From Tribonema minus (taxonomy: Eukaryota; Sar; Xanthophyceae; Tribonematales; Tribonemataceae): a stretch of 64,000 nucleotides of DNA. The stretch lies in NCBI GenBank assembly GCA_017506865.1, contig JAFCMP010000064.1, forward strand, positions 186,001 to 250,000, written 5' to 3'. The position numbers were made by a program, and so were the translations under genes. The notes under the pieces are model-generated. The model saw only the letters and a list, made by a program, of their open reading frames with translations. It made no database searches and was not told the DNA's origin. Shown in pieces: positions 18,085-62,900 of the stretch (positions within the stretch are counted from its first letter, which is position 1; each line of letters begins with the position of its first letter).

Positions 18085-18257
18085 TCCCATGCTGCATCGT
18101 GACGGCTACTCACATCTTGGAAGTCACTTGTAGAAATGCCTGGCGCTCTGCAGGGGTCAAGGTGCATGACAGCTTGGGCAGCTCGAACTTCAGAACTGCA
18201 ACTTCAAACTTGAGGTAGTGCTTGAAGTTGATGGGGGTTTTGAACGCAGTTGTTGCT

Positions 18258-34699: not shown

Positions 34700-35087
34700 C
34701 GAACGCAGGATACACGGTGCTTGATCGAAAAATATGCAATTGATTGCACTGCGAGGCGGCGCGAGGCCGCCGGCCTCCGTTAATCCACAGTTGCTTGTTT
34801 TATCACGTCCGAAAGTGAACTCACCATTGTGCTGGCCACCAGGCGTGGATCGCGGTGCAGGTGGTGTGGGGCTGCTGGCGGGTGGTCGACAGGCCTGTCG
34901 GCGGTGTGGCGGTGGCGCCAGGTGCTGTACTTGGCGCTGTGAGAGTGACAGCCGAGGCTGTAAAGCTTTTTCAGAGGAGAGGTCACGGCAGCGCTCCTCA
35001 CTTGCTGCCGCACTTCAACCTGAAGTTTCATGTGTTTGTGTGTAGGACTCATGCAGCAATCATGTGGGATCGGCAACACCGGTGGGC
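34700..35087 (+). promoter_or_regulatory. Presumed PHYLLO upstream region
   Basis: An in-frame TAG at 35043-35045 limits upward extension, and TGTGTGTAG just before 35046 could be a 3' splice site for an upstream exon carrying the plastid presequence, which the first ATG at 35088 lacks. No clear promoter element. Confidence 0.25.
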
Positions 35088-38000
35088 ATGAGGAGCGAAG
35101 AAATGCCTCTCGAGAGTGGTGAGCTGGCTGGGGTACAGGACGTGACTCCCGAGGGCTTGACCTGCGTGCCTCTGCATGCGGCCGGGGACCTGCTCCTGAA
35201 AGCTGTGCAGCAGCACGTTTGTACTCACGACACGGTCGACCGGCGGAGCGGGTTGCTGCGGCTGCAGGTGCGCGTTGACGATGAGGAGCTGGGCTGCGGA
35301 CAGGAGGCTCCCCTCGCTTGGCTGAGGGCGCAGAGCCAAACATGCACACCACTGGCCGCAAGCCATGCTCACAACAGCGGCCATCAGCCGATGGTGTTCT
35401 TGCGAACACCGGATGAGGTCACCACCATTGCCGGCATAGGCGCTGCCGACGTGCTTCCGGATTCGTCGGCACCAGCAGCATCAGGGACTGCGGAACGTAT
35501 GCAATTACCCTCCGGCCTTCCGCTCGGTGCGCGGTACGTTGGCGGCGCCAGGTTCGACAGCCGCCCTCACCCAACAGGCGATGCACAGTGGCGGGAGTTT
35601 GGCAACAGCTTTTTTGTGCTGCCGCTTCTAGAGCTGAGCACTGACGCATGCACCGGAGGAAAGAGGGGGGTCACTGCTGCGGTGCACATCAAGTGGGGAG
35701 CGGAGAGCGACTTGGCGGACGAGCAGGAGCAGCAGCAGCAGGAGCAGCAGCGGCACACAAATCACGCCACATCGCCGCATTTCATCGGCTTTGCAACAGC
35801 GCAAGATGCCTGTGCAGCAGCGGCAGCACTCATCCAACGCGCCACCTGGGCCTACTTCACCGACGACCCCCCGACCCCGCTGCCCGCCCCCCTCTCCCAA
35901 GAGGACACGGTGCGCCGCGACACGTGGGACGCGGCGGTGGCAACGGCGCTCAGCGAAATAGCGCGCGGCACGTGCAACAAGGTCGTGCTCGCGCGGACGC
36001 GCCAGCTCACCCTCGCGCGCCCGCTCCCCGCGACGGAGCTCCTCCACCGCCTGCGCCGCATCCCCGGCTACCTCTTCCTCATACAGCCGTCGCGCGCCGC
36101 TGCGGCGTTCGTCGGGTGCACGCCGGAGCGGCTGTTCAGCGTCGGCGGCGACGGCGCGACCGTGTACACGGAGTCGCTCGCGGGGACGCGGCCGCGTGGA
36201 GCGTCGCCGCTTGAAGACGCCGCGCTCGGCGCCGCGCTGCTCGCGAGCGCCAAGGACATGAGCGAGAACGACATCACGGCGGCGCACGTGCGCGCCGCGC
36301 TGGCCGCGTGCGCGCTGCGCGACGTGTCCGTCTCCGCGCCGCACCTCGCGCGCCAGCCGCACGTGCAGCACATCCGCCGCAGCATCACCGCGCGCGCGCC
36401 GCCGCCGCAGCAGCAGCAGCAGCAGCCGCCGTCGCCGCAGCAGCAGCAGCCGCTGCAGCAGCAGCGCGCTGCGGCGACGGCGGCCCTCATCCCCGCGCTG
36501 CTGCGCGCGCTGCACCCCACCCCCGCCGTCTGCGGCTGCCCCACGGCCGCGGCGCACGACGTCATACGCGCCTGCGAGCCCTTCGACCGCGGCTTTTACG
36601 CGGGCCCCGTAGGCTATTTGTCAGCGCGCGCCAGCGACGTCGGCGTGGCGATCCGCAGCGCGCTGCTCGGCGGCAGCGTCAGCAGCAGCGGCAGCAGCGG
36701 CGGCGGCGGCACGCGCCTGACGCTGTTCGCCGGCGCGGGCATCGTCGCGGGCTCCACCGCAGAGGGCGAGTGGGGCGAGACCGGCCCCAGCATGAAGATG
36801 AAGGGGATGCTGTCGCTGTTCGCGCGCGCGCCCGCGCCCGCCGCCTCCGCCGCCGCGCTGCGCCGCCTGCCCAACGTCAACGCGCTGGCGGGGGCGCTGG
36901 CGGCTGAGGAGCTCGCGCGCTGCGGCGTGCGCGCGTGCGTGCTGTGCCCGGGGTCGCGCTCGACGCCGCTCACTGTGGGCATCGCGCAGCGCGCCCTCTC
37001 GCAGAGCGCTGCTGCCGATGCTGCTGCTGGTGCTGCGGTGCCTGGTGGCGACAGCAGCGCTCCCCTCTGGACCGCAGCCGCGAAGGGCGACGCTGCGTCG
37101 GCGGCGGCAGCCAACGGCAGCAGTGCTCAGCACGCTGCCGCGCCGCGCGCCCCCTCCGCTGCTGCCGCTGCTGCTGCGATGCCGCTCGTCCACCACGACG
37201 AGCGCGGCGCGGCGTTCTTTGCGCTGGGCTACGCCAAGGGCAGCGGCGGGCGGCCGTGCGCAGTAGTAACGACGTCGGGTACGGCGGTGGCGAACCTGCT
37301 GCCGGGGGCGATGGAGGCAGGGCTGGGGGGGCACGCCATGCTGCTGCTGACTGCAGATAGGCCGCCGGAGGCGCGGGACGTGGGCGCGGACCAGACGCTG
37401 GACCAGGTATGTTTGTATGTTTGGGGTTGACAGGCATGTATGTATGTACTTGTTGGTGCTGCTCACCGCGGATACGCCGCCGGAGGCGCGGGACGTGAGC
37501 GCAGATCAGAGCCTGGACCAGGTATGTATGTATGACCTTGACCAGGTATGTATGTAGACTACTTGTTGCTGCTGCTCACCGCAGATAGGCCGCCGGAGGC
37601 GCGCGACAGGGGGACGGATCAGACGCTGGACCAGGTATGCATGTACTTGAGTTTGAAGGTTGCTGATGTTGAGGTAGTGGGAAGTGGCGGCTGGCTGGTT
37701 GATGCTGAAAGCTGGACGGATGGGGACACAGGGCAGTGGTCAGGGGGTTCTCTATGTCAATTGTTGAATATTGCTGATGTCGCTCTGCAGAGACCCAAGC
37801 GTGAGCTTGCGCGGGGGCTGCTGTACATGAGCTCAGGACACGAGCGGTGCTGCACTGCCCAAAGCACAATGTTCAGCCAGGCAGGAAGATTGCAGTATCG
37901 AAGTGTTCAAAGCCTGGCCGGTTCAGTCTCCAAGGCTGCGCTTGTGGGCAGCTGCTGCGTTGGCACTCCGTTTGGCAGCGACATTTCAATACCTGTCGAG

Positions 38001-41000
38001 GATGCAAGCAGTGTTGTGCACATTGCATTAGGCTGTAGGTCTGGTGTCACACACACATATTGTCCAACTAACCCTAACCCTACCCCGCTCACCCCCCCCC
38101 CTCTCTCCCCTTCCCTCCCCCCCACTGCGCAGGTGCACCTGCTGCGCAACTGCGCGCGCTGGTTCAGAGACGTCGCCCCGCCCGACGACGCCGTCTCCGC
38201 CTGCGCGCTGCTCTCCGACGTCTCGCACGCCGTGTCACGCGCCAGCGGCAGCAGCAGCAGCGGCGGCAGCAGCGGCGGCGGCGATGCGGGCCCCGTGCAC
38301 CTCAACTTGATGTTCCGCGAAAATTTGGCCCCAGAGGGCGGCGCGATTCGCGATGCTCAGTGCTCAGGGCTCGCGTCTGATTGGTCGCCGCGCTGCCTGG
38401 ACACGCCGCAGTTCGCGCGCTGGCTCGCGGGCGACGCTCCTCTGGCGGTTACGCTGGCAGTTACGCCGGGGGGGAACGGGGGGGGTGTGGGGGACGTTGT
38501 GGAGCTGCTGCTGGGGGCGCGCAGGGGGGTGGTGGTGGTGGGGGCGCTGTACTCGGCGCGGGAGAGGGCGGCGGCGCGGCGGCTGGCGCTGCTGCTACGG
38601 GTATGTATGTATGATAGTATCTGTCCATGTTCATGAATGTGGCGCAACATCATGGAGGGCACTTGCTGTCTTTTCATGCAGGATCGGTTGATGTCAGGAG
38701 AACAAACCACTGTTGATGATGCTTTATATAGTAGAGTAATTGTATTGCTAAAACTACTACGGCATCTGATATCATGCAAAGCTGGCTTGTTGAGGTAATG
38801 AGTCCAAATGTTCTTGGTCATGGAATTCGCGTGTTGCCTGAATGCCTTCACCGCTGCACTAGCCATCACAGCCATCACCTGTTGAAGCATATGCTTCAGG
38901 GACCATTCGCCGTTTGTGCCACATTCGCAAAGCGAGGTCTCCACAATGTGGCGGGTTGCTGTACAAGGTTGTAGTGGCGGTGTCTGCACATCACATGTAT
39001 TATATGTCTCTGCCAAGTGTAAAGTGTACGCTGATGCATCGTCGAGCCTTTGTTGTGCTGACGCAGCTTTGTGCAAGTTACAAGCATCTTAGATTTAGCA
39101 TTACAACAGTTCATGGCAAATATGCATGTATGTATGCGCTCAACAGTCTGGCCACTGCAGTAGCGTCGTGTCCACAGCAGTGTTGCAGTGCTTCTGCACG
39201 TCTATGTACACTACCTAACACCCTTACCATGCCAGAAGTGCAGTACATTAAACTGTGCAGTACCATGCTCCCATTCGTGCCCAATACAGTGCTCAACATC
39301 AGTGCCTCTCACTACGCTGCTCACCATCAGTGCCACCAGAACCTTGTCAGAGCACAATGTTACCCATGCGGCATGCTGACTGTATCTGCCACGTGCGATC
39401 ACTCAGATGTGCTGCGCTGTTGCTGCTACGCTCGCCTCGCATGGCAGTGGCCCGTGCTCGCGGACATCACCTCAGGGCTCCGCCAGGCCGCCCCCCTTCA
39501 CGAAGCAGCGCTCAACATTGGCGCCTACAACCTCCTTTTAACAGACCCCGTCATCGCAGCGGGCATGAGCCCCGACGTCATACTTCAAGTGGGACGCCCC
39601 ATCATCTCCAAGCGCCTCATGCAGTTAATGAGCGGCAGGGGCTGCGCGGGTCACGCCGTGCCGCTGACCGCTGCTGTACTGGTGTCTGCGCAGCGCAGCC
39701 GGTATGACCCTGCGGGCTGCTTCACGCACGCGCTCGCGTGCGGCGTGCCCGCGTTCGAGCGCGCCGTGTACGCAGCGCTGCTCGCTGCGCGCAGCAGCAG
39801 CAGCAGCAGCTGCGCCAACAGCAGCAGCTGCGCCAGCGCCAGCGCTTGTGGCTGCTGCAGTGCCGCAAGCGGCGGCGCCAGCAATGGCGGCAGCAGCAGC
39901 GGCAGCAGCGCCCGCGCTTGTGGCTGCTGCAGTGGCGCAAGCTGCGGCAATGGCGGCGGCATTGGCGGCGGCAGCGGCGGCGGCGGCGCCAGCGGTGTGA
40001 GCAGAGGCAGCGAGCTGCTGCCGTCGCTGCACGCGATGAGTGTTGCCGCAGAGGCAGCAGCAGCAGCAGTGCTCGGGGCCATGGGGGGTGAGGGGAGGCT
40101 GGTGGAGCCGGCCATCGCGCGCTGCGTGTCGGCGCATCTTTCGCCCGGCGCAGGGCTGTTCCTGTCCAATAGCATGCCGTGCCGTGACATGGACACATTC
40201 GCGGTGGCGACGCCGGCAGCAGCGGCAGCAGCAGCGGCAGTGGCGGCAGCAGCGGTGACGCCGGCAGCAGCAGCGGCGCCGGCAGCAGCGGCGGCGCCGC
40301 TGGCGCGGCAGAATGGCACCAGCACTTGCAACGGCAGCAGCAGCCATGGGACCGCGTCTTGTGGTACCAGTGGCAGCAACGGTGTCAATGGCCGCCACTG
40401 CAGCAACGACGCTTGTGGCAGCAGCAATGGCACCAAAGGCAGCCACACCAGCAACGGCAGTAGCGGCGACTTGCCCACCGCCAACGGCATCAATGGCGGC
40501 GGCTACGGCAGCAGCGGCAGCTTCACCAACAGCAGCAATGGCAGCAGCGGCAGCAGCAGCAGCAGCAGTGGCGGCAGCAGCAGCGGACCAGGAAATTTGT
40601 GCCACGTGGCCATGAACCGCGGCGCCAACGGCATAGATGGCGTCGTCAGCTCCGCTTTAGGCTATGCAGTGGGCCTGCGGCGGCCGGTGACTCTCCTCAT
40701 CGGCGACATGGCGCTGCTGCACGACGTCAACGCCCTGCACCTGCTGCGCCAGATACCACACCCGATCACCATTGTGTGCGTTAACAACGGAGGCAGCGCC
40801 ATCTTCAGCTTCCTGCCGATAGCGCGCCACGCGGACGTGTTCTCGCCGTACTTCGACACGCCTCACGACCTGTCATTCGAGGGCGTTTGCTCGACGTTTG
40901 GCGTGCGTTACGCGCGTGCGACAACCCCGCAGGAGTTCGAGCGCATCTACCGCGAGTCTCAGCAGCCGCAGCAGCAGCAAAGTAGCAGCTGCTCAGCCAC

Positions 41001-43548
41001 TACCACAGTCCAACATCTCTTCATAGAGGCCGTCACCGACCGCGCCGATAATGTGCAAGTGCACCGCCAGCTCGGCGCAGCAGCAACGACCGCTGCTCAC
41101 CACGTCCTGCTGAACGACGTCCACCTGGCCTGGGACCTGCACCTGCCAGGCGGCACCCTGCACAGCGGCCGCAGCAGCAGCGGCAGCAGCAGCAGCGGCA
41201 GAGGTGCGCGCGGCACCGTGGTGCTGCTGCACGGCTTTATGGGCAGCCGCCAGGACTGGCGCGCCGTCGTCCCTCTAGCGCTCGCACAGGGCTACACGGT
41301 GCTCACGGTGGACCTGCCGGGCCACGGCCACTCGGCAGCAGCGCGCGGCACGCTCACGCCCGCGGCGGTCGCGCTGGCGCTGCGGCGCCTGCTCGCGGCG
41401 CTGCGGCTGCGCGCGGCGTGGGTGGTGGGCTACTCTCTGGGCGCTCGTATCGCCATGGCGCTGGCAGACACCACTGCCGCTGCGTGCAGCGACAACGACA
41501 CGAAACTGGAGGGCGTGGTGCTGGTCGGCGGCGCGATCGGCGCGGCGACGCACGAGCAGCGCCGCGCGCGCTGGGCCGCAGACTGCGCCCTCGCCGCAAA
41601 GCTGCAGGCCGCCGACAGCACTGAGCGTGGTAGCACTGCTGCTGCTGCTGACGGAGGAAGTGGCGCCTTCCGCGCGCTGCTGCGCAAGTGGTATGCGGCG
41701 CCGCTGTGGGGGGGCGTCGCGGCGCGCGCGCCGGCGGCGCACGCGGCGATGCTGGACGCGCGCGTCGCCGCAAACGCGCGGCCGCGGCGACTCGCTGACG
41801 CGCTGCTGGCGCTTAGCGTCGCGCGTCAGGGCGACATGCCCGCGGCGCTGGCGCGGGTGGACGCCCTGTACGTCGCCGGCGCGCTGGATGAGAAGTACGC
41901 GGCGGAAGCGCGCGCGTTTGCGTCTGCGGGTGGCAGCGGCGTCGACTGCGGCAGCAGCGGCGGTGGCGCGCGGCGCAGGCGGCAGGAGGTAGCGATTGTG
42001 GAGGGCGTGGGGCACGCGGTTCTGGCGGAAGCTCCGGAGCGGCTGTGGGCGCTCGCCAGCAACTTCATCGCTGGCAGCAGCAGCAGCAGCAGCAGTGCTC
42101 GGCCAGATGGAGGTGCAGCCGCGGCACCGCCGCCACGGCTCACGGTTCGGAGCCTGTCGATGACGCCAATCACGGTGCCGCTGACGCAGCCGCTGGCGCT
42201 GAGCCGCTGCACGCTGACGAGCAGAGAAGGCGTACTGCTGACGCTCACACTCAGCAGGGCCGGCGACAGCAGCAGCAGCGGCGGCAGCGCCAGCGGTGCC
42301 GACGGCCGCAGCGGCGGCGGCAGCAGCGGCGGCGGCGGCAGCGGCGGCGGCGGCAGCGGCGGCGGCGGCAGCAGCGGCGGCGGCGGCGTGGGCAGCGGCG
42401 GCACGTACCGTGGCGTGAGCGAGGTGACGCCGCTGCCAGGCTTCCACAAGGAGACCCTGCAGCAGGGGCAGGAGCAGCTGCAGACGCTGGCACGAGCTCT
42501 CGCCGGCAGGCAAGTGCCGCCGCTAGCAACAGCGCTGGACGGCAGCATCGGTCGCTGGCTAGCTGCTGCGCTGGGCACGGGCGCTGCCGCCGCGCTGCTG
42601 CCGAGCGTGCGCTGCGGCGTGGAGATGGCGCTGCTGCATGCGTTGGCCGCTGCCGCCGATGTCCCCATGGCTGCTCTGATTGCGGCGGCGGCGCTGCCGG
42701 CGCGCCGCTGCTGCGGCGCCGTGCGCATGAACTCTTTGCTTACGCGCAGCCCTGCGCAGCCCGTGACGACGTCAGTTGCGGTTGCCCCATCATCAATACC
42801 AGCGGCGGCGGCAACGTCAGAGCCAGCGTCCCAATCAACAGCAACAGCAGCAGCAGCAGCAGCGCCGCAGATGAACGGAGCGCAAGAGCGGCCGCTGCAA
42901 CACTGGTCACACGTGGTGAAGGTGAAGGTGGGGGGCGCCTGCGGTCCGCGCGCAGATGCAGACAGGGTCAACGCCATCGCGGCGCGCGGCGACACGCGCC
43001 TGCGGCTCGACGCCAATCAGGCGTGGACGCTGCACGAAGCGCTCGCATTCACGCGCGAGCTCTCACCGCGCGCGCGCAATGCCGTGGAGTACATTGAGGA
43101 GCCTCTGCGGGACCCGCGGCAGCTGCCTCGCTTCTCAGACGCGACCGACGGGTTCCCCTTTGCGCTCGACGAGAGCGTAACCGACGGCGTGGGGAGCGTC
43201 GCCGACCTCACTGATCTGCGGCCCACGGCGCTGGTCCTCAAGCCCACAGTCATGGGGGGCGTTGAGGAGACGGTGTCGTGGGCGCAGGCGGCGGCGCACT
43301 GCGGCGCTGCTGTGGTGATTACGTCGGCGTTTGAGACTGGCGTGTGTCTCTCGCATCTGGCGATTCTGGCCTCAGCGCTGAGCAGTGAGGGAACGTGCCA
43401 CGGCCTAAGCACTTTTGATAGGCTGAGCAAGGAGGGGGAAGGGCGCGTGTGGTTGCCAGACTTTAGTGAAGCGGTGTATGACGGTGACATGATTGATGTC
43501 GCTGTCTGTCAGCGGCTGCTCGATACATGTGCTAGCCGGCTTGTTTAA
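35088..43548 (+). CDS. PHYLLO: PHYLLO: fused MenF-MenD-MenH-MenC of phylloquinone synthesis
   Basis: Three exons, 35088-37406, 38133-38600 and 39448-43548, all phase 0 with GTATGT donors; 2295 aa. MenF (isochorismate synthase, to about residue 580): KVVLAR, GCTPERLF, AGTRPRG, FYAGPVG, EGEWGET. MenD (SEPHCHC synthase, about 596-1480): CPGSRSTPL, HHDERG, TSGTAVANL, then GDMALLHDVNA and NNGG for thiamine diphosphate. MenH (about 1518-1806): LLHGFMG, GYSLG nucleophile, VGHAVLAE. MenC (o-succinylbenzoate synthase, about 1827-2290): KVK, LDANQAW, IEEP, ALDES, LVLKP. Together they turn chorismate into o-succinylbenzoate in the plastid. Long Ser/Gly/Asn/Ala inserts lie at 39793-40010, 40200-40590 and 42260-42405. 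All catalytic motifs are present. The start is uncertain: no targeting peptide follows the first ATG, so an upstream exon is likely. The order F-D-H-C differs from the plant order as I recall it (F-D-C-H). Confidence 0.93.
37338..37634 (+). repeat. Exon-edge echo array at the PHYLLO exon 1 donor, three units
   Basis: The last 69 bases of exon 1 (37338-37406, the MenD LLTADRPPE motif) are repeated at 37453-37521 and 37566-37634. Each copy is exactly 69 nt, open, and followed by a GTATG donor. A 12-base mini-echo GACCTTGACCAG|GTATGT sits at 37534-37545. Reading past the first donor reaches a TGA within eight codons, so only the first donor joins the frame. Confidence 0.92.
38066..38132. repeat. 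Telomere-like and C-rich tract before the PHYLLO exon 2 acceptor
   Basis: AACTAACCCTAACCCTACCC followed by a long C/T run leading to CTGCGCAG. The telomere-like tract is part of the polypyrimidine region. Confidence 0.7.
40200..40590 (+). repeat. Low-complexity insert within MenD
   Basis: About 120 residues of Ala then Ser/Gly/Asn/Thr/Cys, built from GCA/GGC/AGC triplets, between the FLSNSMPCRDMD and MNRGANGIDG blocks that are adjacent in bacterial MenD. Confidence 0.8.
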
Positions 43549-45313: not shown

Positions 45314-46114
45314 CTATAGAGCACTGAGTATTGCTGCAGCAGCTATGCAAACGGCTTCACTGCCCCTGCCATACGTGTGTAACGATATCTTGACGGTTGC
45401 GTAAGCATCTGCTTTGCATAGCCGCGCTCTGTTGTCTGGGTGTTGTGCAAGTGGCAGCATCGTTTTTAAGGCTTTCGACTGCAATGCCTGGCCCTCACAT
45501 GAGCTGTCGACTGCTTCAACAAGTGCCTCACAAGCGCCTGCCGCACCAAGACGAGCAGCACTATGTTTCGCCAGCGCTGTGATTGCGTCCAGTACATTCC
45601 ACTGTGTCTGCTCTAGGACATACCTCGACGGATGTGTGCAATCACCAGCAGGATTCACGCGCAGCAGCATTGCTACCACCGCTTCGCAGGCACCTGCAGC
45701 TGCCAACTTTTCGCTGTTGCTGGGCAGGCCTGCCAGTGCACCAGCAGCATCCAGTGCACTATTGAGCCTATCGGTCGTTGTCCAGTCGCGGAAATCCGAG
45801 GCAGCACCATGAAGCGCGGCAGCAATAACTTCGCAGGCTCCGGCTGCGCCACATGCCGCGCATATGGCGTCGCAACGCCAGCAGAACGAAACAATTGCTT
45901 GTGCGCCGTATACCTGCACACCATGATTTGTGGGATGCTCCTTCATCGCGCCCACAACAGCTTGACAAAGCCCTACCTCAACAAGTTTCCGCACCTCTTT
46001 CGGAGATTTGACTGGATTCAGTAGTTTGAATACGGCTCGCACTCCCCATAGGGCAACCCTTGAACTCTCCTTGTGCGCTCGCAAACAGCTCGCCACAGCA
46101 GCCGCACCGTCCAT
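45314..46114 (-). CDS. Armadillo-repeat protein, right-arm copy
   Basis: Intact 266-aa frame starting MDGAAAVASCLRAHKE and ending ILSAL, with the same ARM-like repeats as the left copy at 18258-19055 (CGAAGACEVI, AAAGACEAVV, LGAAGACEALV). It differs from the left copy at many residues, mostly in loops (around VNPAGDCTHPSRY), while the helix and turn signatures are kept. Upstream of the ATG the copies diverge, with a stop in this one, fixing the likely start. Role unknown; probably a protein-binding scaffold. Confidence 0.78.
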   Translation of the reverse strand: MDGAAAVASCLRAHKESSRVALWGVRAVFKLLNPVKSPKEVRKLVEVGLCQAVVGAMKEHPTNHGVQVYGAQAIVSFCWRCDAICAACGAAGACEVIAAALHGAASDFRDWTTTDRLNSALDAAGALAGLPSNSEKLAAAGACEAVVAMLLRVNPAGDCTHPSRYVLEQTQWNVLDAITALAKHSAARLGAAGACEALVEAVDSSCEGQALQSKALKTMLPLAQHPDNRARLCKADAYATVKISLHTYGRGSEAVCIAAAAILSAL

Positions 46115-48591
46115 AGCAACTGCGTTTGCTGCTTCACCCCATCAACCTTCAAACACTACCTCAAGTTTGAAGTTTTGAGTTCTCGAGTGGGGGGGCCCAC
46201 TGGGGGGCTGCCCAAGCTGTCATGCACCTTGACCCCTGCAGAGTGCTAGGCATTTCTACAAGTGACGTCCAAGATGTGAGTAGCCGTCACGATGCAGCAT
46301 GGGAATGTGCAACTTCAACTGTGTTCTCTAGACACGGTAATGTGGCACAGCAATGTCGGCAGCTGTTCCTTTGCCAAGACATTGTTATAAATGTGGCAGG
46401 AACGTGATTGCTGCATCAGGGCTCAGGACGTGTGTGAGGCCATCTCCGGGTGCATGGCAAATACATCAGGGAGGTCAGAAAATTGCAAAGAGTGTAATCA
46501 AAACGCTTCGTGTGAGCACAAGCAAAGCATGATGCTTTCGTCTCCCACAGCGATGTGAAAGCAATGAGTCGAAGTGTTCTGAGCGCAGACATAGCAGGAA
46601 GCTTCAACAAAGCCCACAGCGATCATGGAACTAACATGATATTCGAGGGTTGGGCTCGCTCACACATTGCAACACCGTTGCGAAACGTGTTAGATTCTGT
46701 GTCTGGGACTCCCCCTCTGCACCCCCTATATATCCCAGAGTCAAATAGGGGAAGGGGCCCCTGGAGGGAGTTCGCCGCCCCTTCTTGTCCCGCCAAAATT
46801 TGAGCTTGGGCCGGTTCACAACTACAGCATCCACGAACTACAGCCTGCGCCTTCAAGGCGCTCCAGGACACCTGATCAAGAGAGGTGTCTTAAAAGCGTT
46901 GCCACTGCGCTAGCCATGCCGTCTGATCCAGGTGAGGTCCTCTGCTTTCGGCCAACAGCAAACACACGCAAGACACTAAAACCTGGAGCACGATACTGGT
47001 CCTTGGAGCACCACGCGATGCACCTATTGCATAGCTCTGTTGGCGAACATAACAGCAGCACTAGCCATTTTGCTAGAGCCGATGGGCACAGTGGCTGCGA
47101 GAGCGCGCGGCGAGTTTTCATTTTTTTTCTGAATCTCCTCGTCAAAGCTTGCAAGTACCTGTGACGATGCAAACCGATGAAAATGCTCGGAGATACAGCG
47201 CAGTGTTGAGTGACGCGTACTGCTAGCGCCCCCAGTGTATGCTTAGACTTCAGGTGCGGCATACGCAAGCGCACACACAACCAACTGTCACTTTCCGGTC
47301 CGGGACACTGTGACTGGCAGCGATGCGGAGGATCGTGTCGCATGAGTATTCTTTGTAAACAAGCGAGTCACTGGCACAGTCTGGTTCAATTTGTCAGTAT
47401 ACTGCAGTGACGGCGGTCGTTTGAGTGCAACACTCTGACAGTTGTCTGGTTTGCACCAGCCGGAGGTAGCTGTGCAGCGGCCACGGTGCCCATAGTGAGT
47501 CATCTTGACAACGTCCTGTGCCACTGAATTGACCTGTCACAACAGCAGGGGATTCATGACCGATAGCGGCTAGCAATCCGCAAGACACACCCATTAGCGT
47601 TTCGTTACTTCAAGCTTGAATCAGAGGAGATGGCCGCGGCGGTTCGGAAGCTTTGTTTCCTGGCTAAACATGAAGTACTTCTTACAACGAGCCACACGAT
47701 GCTTCGTCTTCGGAATTCTAATTTTAGACTTGAAAAGTTGGCTGCTCCTGCAAGCGCTCAGAGTGTGCTCATCCCGGTGCCGCTTGTGTCGTTGCCACAG
47801 CAGTGGCTGCCAGTGCTGAGGGGATGCCATTGGGTGAGTGCGCCTCTTTGGGTTTAGGGTTAGGGTAAGATTTAGGGTTAGGGGTACGGTCAGGGTGAGG
47901 GTCAGATTAGAGTTTGGGTTTGGGTGAGGTTTAGGGGTCATACAGCGCAAGCAGCATGCTGTGCGGTGCTCAAATGTATACATTGTGTTCTTTCAGAAAC
48001 TTAACGTAGGCCTCAGGATTGGGATTGGCTATCTCTCATCGCTGTGCTATACATATATTGCTTTTTGAAAAGTGTGGCAAACTGCAGTGATGCAGCTGCT
48101 CACAGCAGCGGGCGATCTAGAACTACTAGTTGATGATTCAAATGTTGACCTACCATTTTCACCTGCTCATGCATGCCTGTTCTGACCAAATTTCAGTATA
48201 CTTGTGCAAGTAGCTTTCATTCCGAGCTGAGTCTGCGCATTTCAATCGATGTCGTCTGTTGCATCTGACTGTATCCGACTGAGCGACAAACCAGGATGAA
48301 CAGGCAGTGGCAAGTACCGTATGACACATTGGCAATGACTTCAGACATGCGCAAGTACTCAAACATCACCCTGCTACATTCTGAACATTACACATGTCAT
48401 CGAGCACTCAAATAGAAGTCCCTATTACTTGTACAACTGCGCGAGTACTCACGTATTACGCAGTAGTATACTATAGCACTTTGTGCAACAAGCCATCACG
48501 TCAGAAACCTGCATGAGCACTAGCCCAAGAGTATCCTACTAGTAGAGTCTTCCTCCTCTCCAAATTGGCGGTACACATAGCAGCACTGTTA
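46115..48591. other. Non-coding part of the right arm
   Basis: Mirrors 15568-18230 of the left arm. Open frames are not kept between arms. Element X partner lies at 46560-46800. Confidence 0.5.
47850..47940. repeat. Degenerate telomere-like tract, right arm
   Basis: GTTTAGGGTTAGGG and variants; partner of 16231-16330. Confidence 0.75.
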
Positions 48592-52222: not shown

Positions 52223-53188
52223 ATGCGGCTGGTTTGGTGGGTGGGCTGGGCTGCAGGGCTTGCAGGAGCTAGCACCAGCGGCCCCCAGGTGATGCCAGCG
52301 TGCGTAGCCCCTTCGAGAGAACTTCAAACGTGTGGTGGTGTCTCGGAAGCCCTGGCTGGCGTGCGGAGGAGGGACAGGGAGCGGCTTGGCGTGCTTGGAG
52401 AGCAAGCGGAGTCGGCTGCACGCCACGGCACCAACCACAAGTTACTCGCAGCGGTAAATGGCAATATCTTGTCAGGCTTGCAGCCTGCGGTGAGCCGTGA
52501 CCTCGCTCATCAAGGAGGCGATGCTTTACTTAGTTATATAGCCTTTCTCTCTAGCGTCAGCGCCTGGCGCCCAGTGACTCCCTCTGCTTATCTCTATGAT
52601 ATCGGGGTTCACGTAGATAGCCACAATCTCCAGTTCAGGGCCCATCATGGTGACCTTGGCCTGCATGAAAACTTTGAGATGGAGTCTGCGTGGAGCTGGG
52701 TGGCCCTTAGAAGGGTCTGTCTGTGGGGGGAGAGTCTTGCAGCTTTGTTTGGTATCCCTGCTAGTGTGTGGGGGACAGTCGCTTGCGGATGCTTTGTTGG
52801 GGGTGATATGGGAGGCCCGGTGAACCACCGTCCCGCTCATCAAGGAGGCGATGCTTTGCTTAGTTATATAGCCTTTCTTTCTAGCGTCAGCGCCTGGCGC
52901 CCAGTGACTCCCTCTGCTTATCTTTATGATATCGGGGTTCACGTAGATAGCCACAATCTCCAGTTCAGGGCCCATTATGGTGACCTTGGCCTGCATGAAA
53001 ACTTTGAGATGGAGTCTGCGTGGAGCTGGGTGGCCCTAAGACGGGTCTGTCTGTGGGGGGAGAGTCTTGTAGCTTTGTTTGGTATCCCTGCTAGTATGTG
53101 GGGGACAGTCGCTTGCGGGTGCTTTGTTGGGGGTGATGTGGGGGGCGGGGTGTGGCGTGCAAGCTTTGCATGCTACATCCAAGAGTGA
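52223..53188 (+). CDS. Doubtful open frame across a 330-bp tandem repeat
   Basis: Open for 321 codons because the repeat period (330 bp) is a multiple of three. The two 110-residue units (GGDALLSYIAFLSSVSAW..., ...VACGCFVGGD) differ mostly at third positions. The minus strand of the repeat also reads openly (MGPELEIVAIYVNPDII), recalling an endonuclease-type retroelement protein. It abuts R1 retroposon units, so a repeat origin is as likely as a gene. Confidence 0.25.
   Translation: MRLVWWVGWAAGLAGASTSGPQVMPACVAPSRELQTCGGVSEALAGVRRRDRERLGVLGEQAESAARHGTNHKLLAAVNGNILSGLQPAVSRDLAHQGGDALLSYIAFLSSVSAWRPVTPSAYLYDIGVHVDSHNLQFRAHHGDLGLHENFEMESAWSWVALRRVCLWGESLAALFGIPASVWGTVACGCFVGGDMGGPVNHRPAHQGGDALLSYIAFLSSVSAWRPVTPSAYLYDIGVHVDSHNLQFRAHYGDLGLHENFEMESAWSWVALRRVCLWGESLVALFGIPASMWGTVACGCFVGGDVGGGVWRASFACYIQE
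52505..53155. repeat. 330-bp tandem repeat, two units
   Basis: Unit 1 starts GCTCATCAAGGAGG at 52505, unit 2 at 52835; about 95% or more identical, with some dozen substitutions and no indels until about 53143. Confidence 0.92.
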
Positions 53189-53643: not shown

Positions 53644-53699
53644 AGTACACACTGCATCCAACATGTGGTTTCAGGGAAACCTTCTCAGTGTAATGGTTA

Positions 53700-53752
53700 A
53701 GGTTCGGGTTAAAGTTAGGGTTAGGGTCAGGGTTAGGGTCAGGGTTAGCTGA
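53700..53752. repeat. Interstitial telomere-like tract
   Basis: GGGTTAGGGTCAGGGTTAGG-type units, just beyond the 3' end of the ankyrin/U-box gene. Confidence 0.8.
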
Positions 53753-53799: not shown

Positions 53800-53835
53800 A
53801 CGCACCGCAGCCTCCACCAGCACAACCACCCCCCA
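53800..53835 (-). repeat. Echo of the U-box exon 3' edge
   Basis: On the minus strand CTGGTGGAGGCTGCGGTGCG repeats the exon sequence CTGGTGGAGGCCGAGGTGCG at about 53958-53980. It suggests that site behaves as a donor. Confidence 0.5.
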
Positions 53836-53950
53836 CAAGTAAACTCAAACCAACTCCACAAGCAAGCTAGAACAACGCAGTGCTGCGAAGCACAAGCAAT
53901 TCTGCAGAAACACTTCAAGCACCACTTCAAGTACCCTCCTTCCCTAAACT

Positions 53951-56900
53951 TCAACTGTGACGCACCTCGGCCTCCACCAGCGGCTGCCCCGTGAGCGGAT
54001 CGATGCTGCCCTGCTGCTGCAGCCACATGGCGATCATGGCCCTGTCGTACACGTTCCCATACGGCGTGCGCACGGGGTCCCGCATCAGGCGCCGGCTCAA
54101 GTTGCACTTGAAGTTGGGTGGAGCGTCAACCGCAAGCGCGGCCGCCGTGCGCGCCTCCACGCTGGACCCTGTGGATGAGCGCCGCTGTTGCTGAGCGGTG
54201 CTGTGGTGTTGAGCACTGTTGCTGCTGCTGCTGTGGGACTTTTTTGCTTCTGCGACTTCCGGCACGGGGGGTGCTTCGCCAGTTGTGGCGAGCGACGGCA
54301 GGTTTCCCAGCATGGTGCCGCTGCGGTGTCGTGGGTAACGAGAGAGTGTGTGTGTGTGTGATGGTGCTGTGGTGTCGTTTGAGAGAGTGTGTGTGTGATG
54401 GTGCTGTGGTGTCGTTTGAATGTGAGGTTGTGAGCATGGTGATGCTGCAGTGCTCAGAAAGCTTGAGCATCGTCATCATGATCATGGCGTGATGTCAATG
54501 GAATGTAAGTGTCTGATGATGTAGGTGGCATGTGCGGATGCCGTTCATGCCAGCGGTAAGGTCTGATTCTTGTGGATAAGCTACTGGAGGGGGAGCACAA
54601 AGGATAGTACTGAGCTGCGCAAGTGTAACCCACAGCACCAGAGAGGGCTGTGTCAAAGCAGCACCCAGTAAAAGCGCTCAAAATGCATGGCTTTATATGT
54701 GCACGTGCTTTGAGCCTTCAGGAGGGGGACGGCAAAGAATACTACTGAGCTGCCACAAAGTCGCAAACAAGGACAGTGTACCACACAAGTTCAAAGCCGA
54801 CTTTGAAACTACAGCCATGGTAAGCTGTAAGCTTTCACCGATTGAGAGCATCTCATCCCTTAAGTGTAGTACTCACAGCAAGCTGTACGCGCATTGCCAG
54901 CTCATGCACACATTACATATACACGTCGTCATTTGAAGGATAGGCATGTAAGTAGATCTGAATCAGAATCACCATGCCAGCAGCGAGCTTGCAACTTCAA
55001 CTTCAACATGCACAAACGCAACTATGGAAGTTCTCAAGGAGTGCACTACACTCTGTACACTCTGTGCTGCAGCTCGCGGGCTAGCTGCAGGTGTTCGATG
55101 ACTTACTGATGTGACTTAACGCTTCTCAACAAGAAAACAGCGATATGTGTGCAGCAATATCACAACCAGTCGGTGTACGCAACACTTGTGCATGCTTTCA
55201 TGTGGCAACACACAAACCTGTGCAGCAGTCGGTGAGCAGCGCTGCCCCTTTCGCTTGCAGTCGCACCACCACCACCCCCCCCGCCCCCTCTGCTGCCGTG
55301 CCCCCCCCTGCCCCCCTTCGGAGACCCCTTCTTCTCGCTTGAAGTTGGCACGTCACCAGCACCATTTTCCGCAGATTTGGGCGTCTGCAGGCCAATGAAC
55401 ATCTGCCCCGTCTCCTCATCCACCGCAAACACCAGCGTCGGCAGTGTAACGTCACTGACAGCGGCGGGCGGCGCCATGGCCTGAATCGCGTCGCGAATGG
55501 CGGGCGCCGTTGTCATGTGGAAGGGGAGCGCGCCTTGGCTGTTGGGCCGCGTTGCGTCTGCGCCGTGGGTGAGTAGGAGAGTCACCACGTCCACATGGCT
55601 GTAGAAGCAGGCCTGGCAGGGGGGGGGGGTGGGGGGTGGAGGCTTAGTGGAGCTCGGCAGGAGCTGTGAGTGTTACTGTAGAGTCGACTGATGTTCAAGT
55701 AGGAGAGTCACCACATCCACATGGCTGTAGAAGCAGGGCCTGACAGGGGGGGTGGGGGGGAGGGATGGGGGGTGGGGAGGAGTGGTGTTCAGAGGCTTAA
55801 TGGAGCTAGGCAGGTGTTGTAAGTGTTTGCAAACAGTCAACTGACGTGTTCGAGTAGGAGAGTCACCACCACCACCACGAATGGGCTGCTGTAGAAGCAG
55901 GCCTGGCAGGCGGGATGGGCACGGTGCGGGGGGTGCATGGCAGGGTGCTTAGAGACTACTTGGAGTCCCGCAGGGACTCCAAGTGCAGGTTTGTGAGAGG
56001 CAATTGCCAGTGTAAGCTGGGGAATCACCACATCATGACTGTAGAAGCAGGCCTGGCGCGTGGGGGGGGGGGGGGTGGGGGGGGGCATGAGGCGGGGGTG
56101 CGTAAGGGTTGTGCTTAGAGACTACTGGGAGTCCAGCAGGTGTTGTAGGTTTGTAAATAGCAATTGCCAGTGTGAGCTAGAGAGTACACGTGGCCTTTAG
56201 GATCAGGCCTGGCAGGTGCGGCACGGGCTAGGGAGAAGGGGAGTGCGACGGTCTAACCCCAAAACCTAACGCTAACCCTAAGTCTAACCGTAATCCTAAC
56301 CCTAACCCTAGCCTTGACCAGAGTAGCCCCGTGGGAACAGGCTCAACAGAATGCCCTGCTAGTGTGTGAGAGGCAACTGACGTGTTTACAGGGTGCAGAC
56401 CCTGAGGCTGACTGCTTCTTCTCAGTGCCACCACTATTCCCATTTTTGTGCTCGTGCCCCCTTATCTAACCCTAACTCCAGAGACATGCAACCTGTGGAG
56501 TAAGCAGCTTACGTCTGATGGTCACATCAGCAGCACAGCGTTGTGCGCGAAGATGAGCTGAGCACTGTGCAGCATCCGCGCCTCAGCGTCTGCTGAAGTC
56601 ACACTACTGCATGTTTGCTGTGTGTAACTGAACCTAACCCTAACCCTAACCCTAAGAGGTGCATGTGGCTGAATCGAGAGGGGAATGGGGGGAGGGGGGG
56701 GTTAAGGGGGACCCGCGTATGTACATAGGTATGGTATAGCATTCACTTTACTGTGTCAGCTCGTGACATGAAGTTGACTCGCCTTGCGAAAAGAGTTCCG
56801 TCAAATTGTTGAGGGGTAGGGGATTAAGGTTGGGGTTAGGGTTAAGGTTAGGATTGATGATCTACACAGTCTAGGCGCTGTCACGGCCTACACATGATGG

Positions 56901-59900
56901 TCATCAAGAATACATGTGGGCAAATGTGTGTCTCACTCTTACTCTTGCGAAAAAGTGCAGGCAGATATTCAGTGCGCCTCCTTGCCGTCAAATGTTCATT
57001 TCAGGCGATAGCACTTGCAACACGCGTTGCATATATAATCAGGGCTTGTTCTACAATAACAACTACACTAAGTGCAAGGTGCAATACAGCTGGAGACGGA
57101 TTTGAAGCGTCTCAGGTAGGGTAAGGCACACTCTTTGCACTGCAGCGCTACATGTGTTTCCCCTATGTAGGTATGTCATGTATGCATAGTATTAATCGCC
57201 GGCTCCTACGGAGTTGACTTGGTGAAGTACATGCGAGCGGCAGCCAAGCATGGCATTGTATAATGGCAGCTACTGTGCAGCAACGACGACATTTGATGCA
57301 GGCCTGTATGTCACCACGGCCTGCATTGCCCCGCACTTTCCGGCAGATGTCTGTAACGTACTCATGCTCATGCAGATTCATGCCTAACCTGGTCTCTACT
57401 AGTTGAAGTCAACTCGAAGACTACTCATACGTCGCATGGTGTGCAATACCCTTGGTGACGTCAAGCACACTCATACCCCAAGTTGTCAGCTCTGTCCCGA
57501 GCACAGGACGCACTCAGTGGCACTGGCAGCCTCACCAGCACCCCCGCCGCACCGCAGGCCACAAAAAACTTCACTGTGAACCTCAAGTTGAATATTCACC
57601 TCGTAGTTGTAATTGGAGTCAAGTTGGCAGTCGGTGACTGTCATATGTATGTGGGTATGTAGCGCATGTGTTTAACTGCGTTCACAAATGTGTGTGAGCA
57701 CACGCTCGAGACGAGCACTAGAGCTGCATAGCTTTTTTTTTTTTTCCGCCCCTCAAGCGAAAGTATATGAAGTACTTCACCTCATGCAGCAGCGTCCACC
57801 CAGTGGCGTTCGCCGCGTCCTTGTGAGCACAGTACGCATGCAGTGTGCACTGGCAATCTCATGAGCACCTCTCACCACAAACTACGAAAAACTCCACGGT
57901 GAACCTCAACTTGAGGTTCCACTTCACCTCGTGCAGCGGCGTCCACCCGATGGCGTTTGTCGTGTCCTTATCCGCGCCGCTGCTGAGCAGTGCCCTGCAT
58001 ATACCTACATGCCCCGCCCGCGCGGCCTCCCCCAGAGGGGTCTGGGGGGGGCCCCTGAGGAACTGAGCGCTGTTGCTGGCCCCCTCTGAGGGGATGTGAG
58101 AGACGTCTGCGCCTGCTTTTAGCAGCGCCAGCGCAATGCCCTCGAAGCCCTTGTGGCAGGCCTCCAGTAGTGGCGTCCATGTGTAGCTGCACGCGCAACA
58201 GGAATATGTATATACACGGTATCAGCACACCCCACGGCATGTATGTATGTGCATCTATGGCATTTATGTGCTTCAAAGTGTCAGCGCAATGCCCTCGAAG
58301 CCCTTGTGGCAGCGCACCAGGGGGTATGTATGTACACAGTAGCAGCACAACAGAACATTACGTGTATATATGGAAACAAATAAAAAGATCGCAGAGCTCT
58401 AGGTGACGAGGTGTGGTTAGCCATCAAAATGAATGGCCCTCACCAATCACCGTGGTCGCCGCTGCTGCGGTTATTCGCCACGAGTCAAACAGTGCCAACA
58501 TATCCGCAGTAGTCAACAGACTTCTGTGTGCAAGCCTTTAAGCGTCCGAGGCATGGGTGTTCAGGATAGATGGCATGTACATATCAGCACATGCATGTAT
58601 GTATGCATGCATCAGCACTGTGCCTGCGAAGTCCTAACCTTAACCTAACCCTCAACTTCAACCCTAACCCCCCCAAACCCTAACACTAACCTTATGGTTC
58701 GTGAAGCTCTTGCGGCAGGTCTTCAGAAGCGGTGCCCAATGCGTAGCTGTGTACATACCATCGCACGCATGTATCAGCGTGATTGCGGCATGTAGGTAGG
58801 TTTTCTACCTATATTTACCTAGACTACAGGTACTAGCCTGATGGGCAATGCCTGTGGAGGTCTTGTGGCAGGCCTGCAGGAGTTGTTCCCACATGTAGCT
58901 GCATGCGCATCAGCGCATGTATGTGTACATGTAGCAACTCAACTCCAGCATGAGCAGCATCAGTGCCATGCCCTCGAAATGTCGGCGGCAGGCCTGCGGC
59001 GGTGACGCCCCACACGCACGAGGGTATGCATGTTTATCAACACTTACTTCAACACTACCTTCGACCTTGAACATTAGGCATGGTGGACCAAGGGGGCCAC
59101 CCGCAAGTACGAATTTTGCATGTATGCTGCAATGTATCACGTACTGATGTTTTGCTGGTGGTGAGGCATTCTCACGTCTGACAACTTCGTCACCATGTGT
59201 AGTGCGATGACTCATCTTAGTCGATGATGTTGTGGTGTGTACCCGTGAATACACACATGTACTGCAGACCCAACATACATGAAGCCCAGCTTGTAACAGT
59301 TTGTAACAGCTAATGGTAGCTAGGGTCTCAGTTTGACGTATTGCTGTTGCGGCACGAGTGCAAAATCCTGCTACAGGTGTAGGTGTTGTGGCGTTTCTTC
59401 AGGTGCTGTCGCTGATGCTGTCAACAACATCAGCCTCTGACAGCTCAAATTCATGTGGTCTTAAACGCGCGTCCTTACCAGGCACTTACCAGGCGATGAG
59501 CGGTGCTGATGTGCAGGACTTGCCAACTTCAACTGTGACTTCAACAACTGCCACAGTTGTGTGTCAGCTAGATATGGAATCGCGTCACACAGCTGAGCGC
59601 TGAGTACATCTTTAAATTTGTATATACCATCAGCACTGCACACACCGAACCGGATAGTGCTAGTCAGCATACATACATGCCCCCGGCACCAGTCAAGCAG
59701 ACAGAGTGCTAACCCTAACCCTAGGCTTGCACAAGTCATGACGTAAAGGCTTATGATTTGAACTTGTGAATCATGGGGTTCAGCTCAGCTGCACAAGACG
59801 CAGATTGGTGATGACAAGCCCCCCTAGTCCCTGCTCTAATTCTAACCCTACATATACCTCTAACCCTAAAGCTGAGTTCACGCCTCTCACAGCGTACTCA

Positions 59901-62900
59901 GCGTCAATGGCTCACCAGTTGGTGGTATTGGGGTCTGCTCCCGCCTTCAGCAGTGCGTGAACCATCTGTTCAACGCCGTAGCCGCAGGCCATATGCAGCG
60001 CTGTCCAACCACTGCGTGTAAGAAGGGTTAGGGGTGGAGTTAGTGTTAGCCGTCCAATGACTGCGTTTAACAAGGGTCATTCGCAGGGTTAGGGTTAGCC
60101 GCAGGCTATGTGCAGTGCTGTGCACCCATTGCGTGCAGCAAGGGTGGAATCAGTGTTCCGGTCAACAATAGTGGCACAGGCACAGCACGACCTGCCGGTC
60201 AGCACGAATACGACTCTGAGTGACTCATGAGTGACTCATCGACTCATGTGCAGGCCTGACGCGAACGGTCAGGATACACACATGCCCGCTGAGACACACA
60301 CACACACCTGCACCATCGGTTTCACCTTGAACCGAATGAGTATGAGTATGAGCACATGTTGCAGTGAGACTTGCGACAGGTGGAGATGGGCTGTGAACGC
60401 AGCAAGCAGGTGACGCCGTTCAGTAGCAGAACTTGAAGTTTGTGGAACCAGTGAGCGTACGTGTAGCGCATTTCATCGGCTGCAATGCATACCACTCAAG
60501 GGAATGCATGTACTTGTGAGAACTGACTTCAAATCACGCACGCAAAGGAAAGGTCCTGAAGCGCCTGTAAGAGCAGGTGGAGACCAATCTAGAGGCAGAC
60601 GTGGAGCGGAAGTCGGGGAAGCCCAGGGAAAACAAGCTGGGTATACAGGCAATTAAACACTTGCATAAATCCATTGAGTCGGGTAGCACTGCTCAAGCGC
60701 CCAACCACTTGAATCGCAGAGCACAAAGCCATTCTGTCAGGTGACCACAACCGGCGCTTGCCTGTTTAAGCATCCCGGCCCGTCTTTGTCTTCAAGAACG
60801 AGTAAATAAATCAATAATGAATGAATGAATGAGCGAATGCTTGAATGAATGAATGACTTTGTTCAAATCGGGCAGCACTACTCAAGAGCTCCGCTATCTA
60901 AACTGCAGGGCATATTGACAAACAATACTTCTATGGCAGAGGTCCCCCATTGGCGCTTGCCTGTTGAAGCATCCCGGCCCCCTTTTTGTCCTCAAGTTCA
61001 AGTCCCCTCCTTGCCGCACATACTCCTTCAGTATGACCAGACCGGCAGCTGCGGCGGCCGCATTGTGACAGCACGCGTGCAGTGCTGTCCATCCATCGCC
61101 ATTCTGCAATGTAGGGTCAACGTAGGGGTAAGTTAGTATCAGCAAAGGCTTGTCCAAATTGTGAGGGGTAGGTTATTGTCAGCAGACTCGTGTCCAAATT
61201 GTGGCAGCACGCATGCAGTGCTGCCCATCCATCAGCATTCTGCAGTGGAGCGTTAATTAGGGGTGAGTAACAGCCGTGTCCAGCTGCGGCAGCATGCAGC
61301 GCTGTCTATCCATGCGCATTCTGCTATGTATGTACACATTAACATAGGGGTAGGTTAGTATCAGCACAGTAGTGTCCAGTTGCGGCTGCATGTGGCACAC
61401 AACTCCGAGGGGTTCCACCCGTAGGTATGTATGGTATTGGGTAGGTAGGGAGCACGCTGTTGTTGGTATGTACTGTGTGCTGCCATACATGCGCCTACGA
61501 AACAGGCGGCTTGCAGTGCTGGACGCAAGTGCTGGCCGCAATGACAGCGACTGAGCACAGATGAAGTATACGTTAATAAGTTGCACTGTGCAGGCAGGCA
61601 CAATCCCACCAGTGCATGGCAGCACCGGAAGCAGGGGGCGCTGGCATGGCGTCTTTTAATGAGGCGATCATTTGCAAGATGCGCAACACACACTGCGGAA
61701 TAACTTCCATCACGCGGGGGCATTAGCTGCCTCAGAACTTGACAGAACCTCCACACCTGGCAAAGTAGCATCCAAGTAGCTCCTGGTTTGAACCAGAGCA
61801 GCCTGCAAAAGACCCCTGAGCCCTTTCTAAGCCCCATATTCCAACAGTACCCCATGTTTCATGTTACACTGTCACGTAATGGTCCTGCCAGAGTGCGCGC
61901 TCCGTCAATAAGCTGAGCACTGTGCATTGTGGATCTATACATACCCCACGCTACACGGTAATGAAATGGTCCTGACAGAGAGTGGTGTGCACCAAGCTCT
62001 GCAGTCCAGGCAAGTGCACGCGCTGTCGGGCTACAGGTACCCAGTTCTCGATGTATACAGCGTCAACGTACCATTGCTTTTAACAAGAAGGTAAAGCCAA
62101 GGTTTTTTTCCACAGGCCAATCATAAAGATTTTGAAGTTGGCATGATCTGGAACCCGAGGAAGCACGTCATCTTAGAGTCAGCACCCCAAACCCTAACCC
62201 AAACGCTGACCCTAACCCTAACCCTCACCTGTTCACCAACCGGCCCCAGCCCGATTGGCTCCTCCCCCAGAGACACCATGAGCAATTCTTCAGCCGGTGG
62301 GGGAGCACTGCCATCATCACTGCAGAATAAATGAGCACAACGGTAAGCGCGCATGTGGGTTCATTTGAGCCTACTGTAGTAGCAGGGAAGAAGACGATCA
62401 TCATCATGATTAGCCGCTGCACGCATCAGGCGCGAGCATACACACTGCACGTGAAAACTTTGTATACACGGTTGCCACACACACATGCGCACCTTCGCAA
62501 GTCTGATGTGCGATCCCGCCGTATATGCCTGAGTCTTCTTTATGACATCAACAGCTTTATAGCGGATTGCACATCTATGCCACCAATTGACCTCTGCAAT
62601 ATATACTGTCAAGTATTGCTTTTGGCAGGCACCAGTGCAATGCACCACGTCTGCAACTCTCAATCGTATTGATGATGGCAGCCGTTGCTGTGACCATGAA
62701 AGAAAATCACGCGTGCAGGCTAGCACGCGCCACACCGCACCAATGCATAGCGCAGAGGCAAACGGAGGCAGCCGCAAGGTGACACACACTCGTGGTGCTA
62801 CCGGAAAGAAAGCTGGTAAAGGAAGTGATTTTAAATATCAACAGCAACCTGCGCGTGCCAGCTCAGGATTGCTGAATCATCTACATCAATGATCTGGAGC

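Follow-up and report, generated by a model that had tools for sequence, protein, structure and literature searches.

Exon sequence that recurs in the next intron is familiar from tandem duplication of whole exons and from mutually exclusive exons, and short arrays of head-to-tail units are familiar from ordinary minisatellites. Here we describe a related but different pattern in the yellow-green alga Tribonema minus (Xanthophyceae), found in an ankyrin/U-box gene of the window, by which we mean the whole stretch of 64,000 nucleotides (nt) that was analysed, positions 186001-250000 of contig C64 in the T. minus assembly (158 Mb, 554 contigs). About a third of the tested T. minus junctions carry copies of themselves, here called echoes, in the neighbouring intron. 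Tandem exon duplication copies the whole exon, whereas in T. minus only its edge is copied (15-92 nt, 117 at most), decaying as neutral DNA; 35-mers lying 106-140 nt inside the donor recurred in 0 of 61 cases. The arrays are like minisatellites in their short extent and in their head-to-tail units of 75-210 base pairs (bp), but unlike them in that their unit holds a working splice junction and is tied to the edge of the exon.

The closest described process is intron gain in which a segment of an exon bearing AGGT is duplicated in tandem in the genome, an established route according to one review (PMC3443670), with Drosophila cases given in PMC2891723. The two have in common that exonic sequence is copied locally and becomes intronic, with duplicated splice-like sites. 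In intron gain, however, a new intron arises within an exon through a duplicated proto-splice site, while in T. minus an existing junction is spanned and its intron lengthened. Among the papers listed by searches of the open-access literature, as judged from titles and the starts of abstracts, we found no description of junction-spanning, intron-lengthening duplications.

Introner elements are a further genome-wide source of intronic sequence in algae (PMC9860276, PMC9481584); the latter also reports them from other ochrophyte algae and states that Pelagomonas introns peak near introner length. Introners share sequence across unrelated genes, whereas T. minus exon edges compared with introns of other genes gave 0 matches in 1959 and 0 in 1901 comparisons (first homology set, below; the comparison is of exon edges, not of purely intronic parts), and every array repeats its own exon edge. 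Mobile elements were rejected on that absence of matches between genes, and we regard mobile elements or introners as an extremely improbable source of the repeats. Up to 2 kb from exons, inverted local repeats occupy 0-0.4% of the non-exon DNA, a figure for local repeats in general, no search aimed at the terminal inverted repeats or target-site duplications of introners having been made; an inverted-repeat process was rejected on their near absence.

Echoes in the ankyrin/U-box gene

This gene lies on the minus strand. A first-pass annotation had placed copies of exon edges in the adjoining introns at five of its acceptors and two of its donors, and self-comparison of 53.5-62.5 kb found the following junction copies, listed with the exons from which they derive.

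53945-54124, minus strand: U-box coding stretch (Pfam PF04564, 54.2 bits).
55363-55612, minus strand: predicted ankyrin-gene exon (gene model), whose acceptor edge (first base 55612, acceptor score 5.1) is the source of the largest array.
55698-56221, minus strand: about four acceptor-edge echoes, with AG at 55739, 55902, 56052 and 56208 (scores 3.1-4.7).
57774-57822, minus strand: donor-edge echo of exon 57928-58186 (85.7% identity over 49 nt, offset 147), with a copy donor at 57780 scoring 5.3.
57928-58186, minus strand: predicted ankyrin exon (gene model) with echoes at both edges (donor 57927, score 5.3; acceptor 58186, score 5.1).
58282-58320, minus strand: partial acceptor-side echo at 58186, exon part only (92.3% over 39 nt, offset 153).
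58845-58913, minus strand: acceptor-edge echo at 58186 (76.8% over 69 nt, offset 712), with AG at 58898 scoring 3.2.
60096-60145, minus strand: acceptor-edge echo of the exon with first base 60011 (82% over 50 nt, offset 117).
60753-60796, minus strand: donor-edge echo of an exon ending near 60961 (AG/GC by eye; 88.9% over 45 nt, offset about 200).
61198-61378, minus strand: two acceptor-edge echoes, 61198-61268 and 61292-61378, of the exon with first base 61103 (83.3% over 72 nt and 75.9% over 87 nt).

Exon 55363-55612 has its acceptor edge repeated about four times across 600 nt, the self-blast pairs behind this array being 55572-56065 with 55698-56221 and 55576-55642 with 56019-56081. Both donor cases stand, through the pairs at 57927 and near 60961, as do four of the acceptors (61103, 60011, 58186 and 55612). 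The fifth, near the U-box exon, is weak, the sole repeat there being a 33-nt intronic pair (54586-54618 and 54721-54753). For exon 53966-54168 one donor copy is listed by the junction criterion.

Short interstitial telomere-like arrays (TTAGGG/CCCTAA) occur in the window at 16272-16319, 47854-47936, 53695-53748, 56253-56310 and 62186-62229; the one at 56253 sits within an intron of the ankyrin gene.

Echoes at other junctions

The wider sample consists of the window and four 50-kb blocks on other contigs (B268, B522, B79 and B532), 264 kb in all, and arrays of the same kind are present in those four blocks. A self-trained gene model with stiff penalties was run on the 264 kb; 97 of 144 exons of at least 100 nt were kept and the 47 with coding log-odds of 15 or less left out, a filter that dropped the ankyrin gene apart from exon 53966-54168. 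With edge matches accepted at a score of at least 34, the donor edge matched its own downstream intron in 20 of 78 cases and the acceptor edge its own upstream intron in 10 of 77. The corresponding controls gave 1/78 and 0/77 for wrong-side introns, 1/78 and 0/77 for exon middles, 0/78 and 0/77 for other introns and 0/78 for the reverse strand. Intronic 40-mers in this set matched the rest of their own intron in 6-17% of cases, and coverage in a Markov control of block B268 was 0.

Gene finders can be misled by echoes, and the edge test was therefore redone with exons placed by homology, through spliced alignment to solved structures with a raised intron cost. The first homology set comprises RPA2, a MAP kinase, ABCG (two segments), a histone deacetylase (HDAC), a tubulin ligase-like protein (TTLL) and MenD, less three donor and three acceptor ends of the MenD and ABCG models that were judged spurious and exons below 40 nt; exon-middle controls were taken only from exons of at least 110 nt. 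Here 17 of 35 donor edges and 6 of 34 acceptor edges recur in the adjoining intron, compared with 0/21 and 1/21 for exon middles and 0/29 and 0/27 on the wrong side. By gene, over whole introns, the counts are 12/22 for RPA2, 2/10 for the MAP kinase, 2/11 and 4/10 for the ABCG segments, 1/8 for HDAC and 1/4 each for TTLL and MenD.

A second homology set, picked later with thresholds unchanged, holds four actin-related genes, each on a different new contig, with exons placed by alignment to an actin from the same genome; the exons used have at least 40 nt and at least four identical residues, and the introns at least 100 nt. It gave 7 of 20 donors and 7 of 23 acceptors (controls 0/35 and 0/41), with 14 of 28 junctions in three of the genes and 0 of 15 in the gene on contig C97. 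The latter (160501-169500), with no echo at its 15 junctions, has a lower exon GC content of 0.56. Exon GC does not predict echoes in the main set (0.699 with an echo, 0.700 without), and dependence on it was rejected.

Pooled over the two homology sets, echoes stand at 24 of 55 donors and 13 of 57 acceptors, compared with 1 of 77 exon middles and 0 of 97 wrong-side introns. The claim that the pattern is systematic is thus borne out over the ten homology-anchored genes taken together, with echoes at 37 of 112 edges as opposed to 1 of 174 controls, and it survives the objection that such copies might be no commoner at edges than at random exon positions, for which the exon middles provide the measure. 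Assembly artefact would be an unlikely source, since a divergence of 11-13% separates the exon parts from their copies, which misassembly of identical reads would not produce.

A search of whole introns in the first homology set turned up a copy of some part of the outermost 80 nt of the exon for 22 of 35 donors and 13 of 34 acceptors. Copies extending to the junction itself are found at 18 of 35 donors in the homology set and 20 of 68 in the gene-model set, and at 7 of 34 and 10 of 71 acceptors, making 55 arrays with 83 copies, one to four copies per array. By block, the donors with such copies number 11/20 (B268), 6/21 (B522), 5/27 (B79), 13/27 (B532) and 3/8 (window), and the acceptors 6/20, 3/20, 4/30, 4/26 and 0/9 in the same order. 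The copies sit within longer introns, for example at +48 and +161 of 726 nt, and those of RPA2 exon 6 lie at +58, +139, +269, +402 and +668; median spacing is 127 nt at donors and 135 nt at acceptors. The exon part measures 15-92 nt, and up to 117 by gapped blast. On the exon side of donors, recurrence of 35-mers rises from 0/61 at -140 through 1/76 at -105 and 8/85 at -70 to 32/97 at -35; it is 41/100 for those spanning the junction and 7-14% in the intron from +100 to +500. The far end of the unit is matched within 260 nt after the copy, above controls, at 19 of 34 donors and 9 of 16 acceptors (28 of 50 first copies together), although often away from the exact offset expected.

Origin and fate of the copies

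The earlier suggestion that introns grow by local duplication stands, given junction-spanning copies that are side-specific, lie in direct orientation and in some cases run head to tail. The suggestion of a mechanism that duplicates exon-intron junctions holds in part: junctions are copied, but the process is general in genic DNA and the excess is at donors only. Local direct repeats cover 23% of the non-exon DNA within 200 bp of exons (inverted repeats 0-0.3%). When the count is restricted to pairs that lie wholly outside predicted exons, coverage of the non-exon DNA up to 4 kb from exons is 8-12%, with 8.3% at 0-200 bp and 10-12% at 200-2000 bp, and duplication is therefore general in genic DNA and best seen at exon edges.

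The best explanation, and in our judgement a probable one, is general small tandem duplication in genic DNA, of which the junction-crossing events survive as intron growth. Small direct tandem duplications of about 75-210 bp would arise throughout the genic DNA of T. minus, by slippage or end-joining; those internal to exons would break the protein and be purged, and those internal to introns would be neutral. A duplication across a junction would copy exon edge, splice site and intron edge head to tail, so that the exon body stays attached to one intact junction, while the second junction turns intronic and the intron becomes longer by one unit; arrays would come from repeated rounds. The intronic copies would then decay neutrally and the exon copy remain under selection, with the consequence that the exon part would be readable for longer than purely intronic duplicates and the repeats would appear as echoes of exon edges. 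Splicing would keep the junction joined to the exon body despite near-authentic copies, presumably through exon definition and the order of transcription.

Several observations weigh against this explanation. Only 10 of 37 junction-spanning matches extend over 90% or more of the offset, as head-to-tail units should, the middle of the unit being unrecognisable in the rest; the same 10 of 37 show the head-to-tail duplication, coding sequence included, that is known from intron gain. Head-to-tail arrangement is thus demonstrated for a minority of units, and in the remainder either similarity has been lost in the middle or the parts were never contiguous. The exon part is shorter than uniform breakpoints predict (92 nt or less in 48 copies, from exons of at least 150 nt), and direct-repeat coverage drops to 3.9% beyond 4 kb from exons. 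Genes differ, with 12 of 22 junctions in RPA2 against 11 of 47 for the other six segments of its set and 0 of 15 in the C97 gene. Mismatches between copies run at 12.9, 12.4 and 21.0% at codon positions 1, 2 and 3; this third-position excess among intron copies is put down here to their serial derivation from the exon, weak constraint on the copies being a possible alternative. Finally, there are too many donor echoes. In a simulation of decay an exon-copy pair stays visible 1.6 times as long as an intron-intron pair, and by our own arithmetic the expected number of echoes is the intronic rate of about 12%, times 1.6, times the available placements. For donor 35-mers at -35 to -1 this gives about 16, where 32 of 97 were observed; for acceptors 12 of 95 were observed against about 16, a rough fit.

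That twofold excess at donors is what would be expected of a process targeted to junctions, in which 5' splice sites would be the favoured starting points of duplication, with transcription, RNA-DNA hybrids or repair at exon 3' ends as possible causes. Such targeting also fits the shortness of the exon part, mostly below about 90 nt, the peak of repeat coverage within 200 bp of exons, and the prevalence of donors over acceptors in the main set (38/103 against 17/105, p=9e-4) and in the pooled homology sets (24/55 against 13/57, p=0.027). The difference is absent, however, from the second homology set alone, where donors and acceptors are alike (7/20 and 7/23), and exon-free pairs are not concentrated at junctions (8.3% there as compared with 10-12% at 200-2000 bp). 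Selection against acceptor-crossing duplications and faster loss of intron-intron pairs could yield the same asymmetry: a donor duplication would leave the correct donor to be transcribed first, an acceptor duplication would put the wrong acceptor ahead, and selection can presumably add to the difference in this way. We consider targeting to junctions rather unlikely. Its most specific form, a lineage-specific process, coupled to splicing or transcription, that would repeatedly copy the end of an exon (at most some 90 nt) along with its donor and the start of the intron and build introns outward from their junctions, appears similarly doubtful; were copying directed at 5' splice sites in this manner, the spliceosome would always have to pick the copy attached to the exon body.

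Whatever their origin, the copies behave as neutral debris, since the retention of splice dinucleotides, the sizes of gaps, the distances and the in-frame stops all fit neutrality. Substitutions amount to 10.8% (donors) and 12.7% (acceptors) in the exon part and to 15.0% and 18.9% in the intron part, with 0.06 gaps per substitution in both parts at donors, and 0.03 in the exon part and 0.09 in the intron part at acceptors. Between exon and copy, mismatches at codon positions 1, 2 and 3 are 8.0, 6.5 and 17.7% at donors, and position 3 shows 16.7% at acceptors against 9.4 and 8.9% at the others; this excess at position 3 is what would be expected if only the exon is held by selection and the copy is free, the copies having been made at different times. 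The first-pass annotation had described nearer copies as usually better preserved, which did not hold: the nearest copy is the better one in 10 of 18 arrays and the farthest in 6 (p=0.13), and there is no decay with distance (Spearman 0.03).

It had also been proposed that the copies serve as decoys that tune splicing, or as alternative 3' and 5' sites, and the strength of the sites might seem to favour this. Donor scores are 5.47 for echoes that keep GT, 5.86 for real donors and 0.43 for other GTs; acceptor scores are 4.23 for echoes that keep AG, 4.81 for real acceptors and 0.84 for other AGs. Echo donors that keep GT score almost as real ones, and the introns therefore hold strong decoys; moreover, the public annotation reads three echo units as exons in one protein (below). 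The dinucleotides, however, are not kept above the level of neutral decay, GT being retained in 47 of 57 copies and AG in 20 of 26, where our own arithmetic for neutral loss of 7.5% per base gives about 49 and about 22. Of the 83 distances to echo sites, 23 are divisible by three (p=0.30), on which selection for frame was rejected; an in-frame stop precedes 48 of the 57 echo donors; and gaps in the exon part are multiples of three in 1 of 14 cases at donors and 1 of 4 at acceptors (2 of 18). Aligned homologues lack the insertions and one transcript-derived protein skips its echoes. The proposal thus found no support in the copies, and a function of this kind is very improbable. Position is an obvious cue by which the spliceosome could avoid the echo sites.

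Other arrays, annotation and meaning

Self-comparison found further arrays in the window, only the last of which, at 37339-37645, is anchored to a protein fold (MenD). They are given here with the MenD exon.

6416-6984, strand not assigned: local array with exon-like units, in a gene without a homology anchor (self-comparison).
21757-22269, minus strand: local array on the upstream (acceptor) side of predicted exon 21576-21804 (self-comparison).
37131-37406, plus strand: MenD-domain exon of the PHYLLO gene, 5' end uncertain, donor after 37406 (spliced alignment to PDB 2x7j_A).
37454-37645, plus strand: two donor-edge echoes of the MenD exon, with a head-to-tail unit of 113-115 nt (68 of exon and 47 of intron).

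The array at 21757-22269 was missed by the junction criterion, which gave instead one donor-side copy for exon 21576-21804. The 2-kb bins of the window with local direct repeats fall in or near genes, and many bins have none. In the PHYLLO and ABC-transporter genes, which are rich in GC, some of the repeat pairs consist of codon-repeat tracts and are set apart from the finding. The PHYLLO gene itself, a fused menF-menD-menH-menC gene with very GC-rich exons, lies at 35046-43548 (Pfam matches); its presence points to a photosynthetic organism. Long open frames resembling armadillo repeats occur at 18219-19055, 29454-30248 and 45314-46141 (Pfam matches mostly weak), the first and last being similar and on opposite strands, and most 2-kb bins around these frames are without local repeats. 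Two overlapping open frames at 25653-26985 look transposase-like by eye; the part scanned, 25653-26414, matched no Pfam family. At 52504-53152 there is a young 330-bp tandem duplication, 96% identical, in the neighbourhood of a gene.

Echoes can be followed in one transcript-derived and one annotated protein. The transcriptome-derived histone deacetylase P0001 (322 of 333 aligned residues identical) aligns to six exons, and the copies at the donor of exon 3 are absent from it. The public T. minus ABC-transporter protein P0121, which maps to contig C522 with 817 of 823 residues identical, treats an echo unit as an exon in three places: a Walker A segment of 28 residues and another segment of 19 residues each occur a second time, and there is a C-terminal repeat of 27 residues. 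These insertions occur in none of eight aligned homologues (of 120 listed), one of the eight ending before the C-terminal one. The absence of a doubled Walker A from the aligned relatives points to an annotation error. Our own gene model took echoes for exons in the PHYLLO and ABC genes, and further annotated proteins of T. minus may carry echo-derived insertions. Echoes thus mislead gene finders, and the protein sets of such genomes need checks for false internal repeats.

Lengthening of introns is common across lineages but its steps are rarely visible, and each echo is a record of the duplication of one junction. Since the exon copy offers a fixed reference, a single genome is enough to read how fast intron-growing mutations arise and what becomes of them. 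The choice of splice site likewise becomes testable, for these introns hold natural, near-identical duplicates of real sites that differ from them mainly in position.

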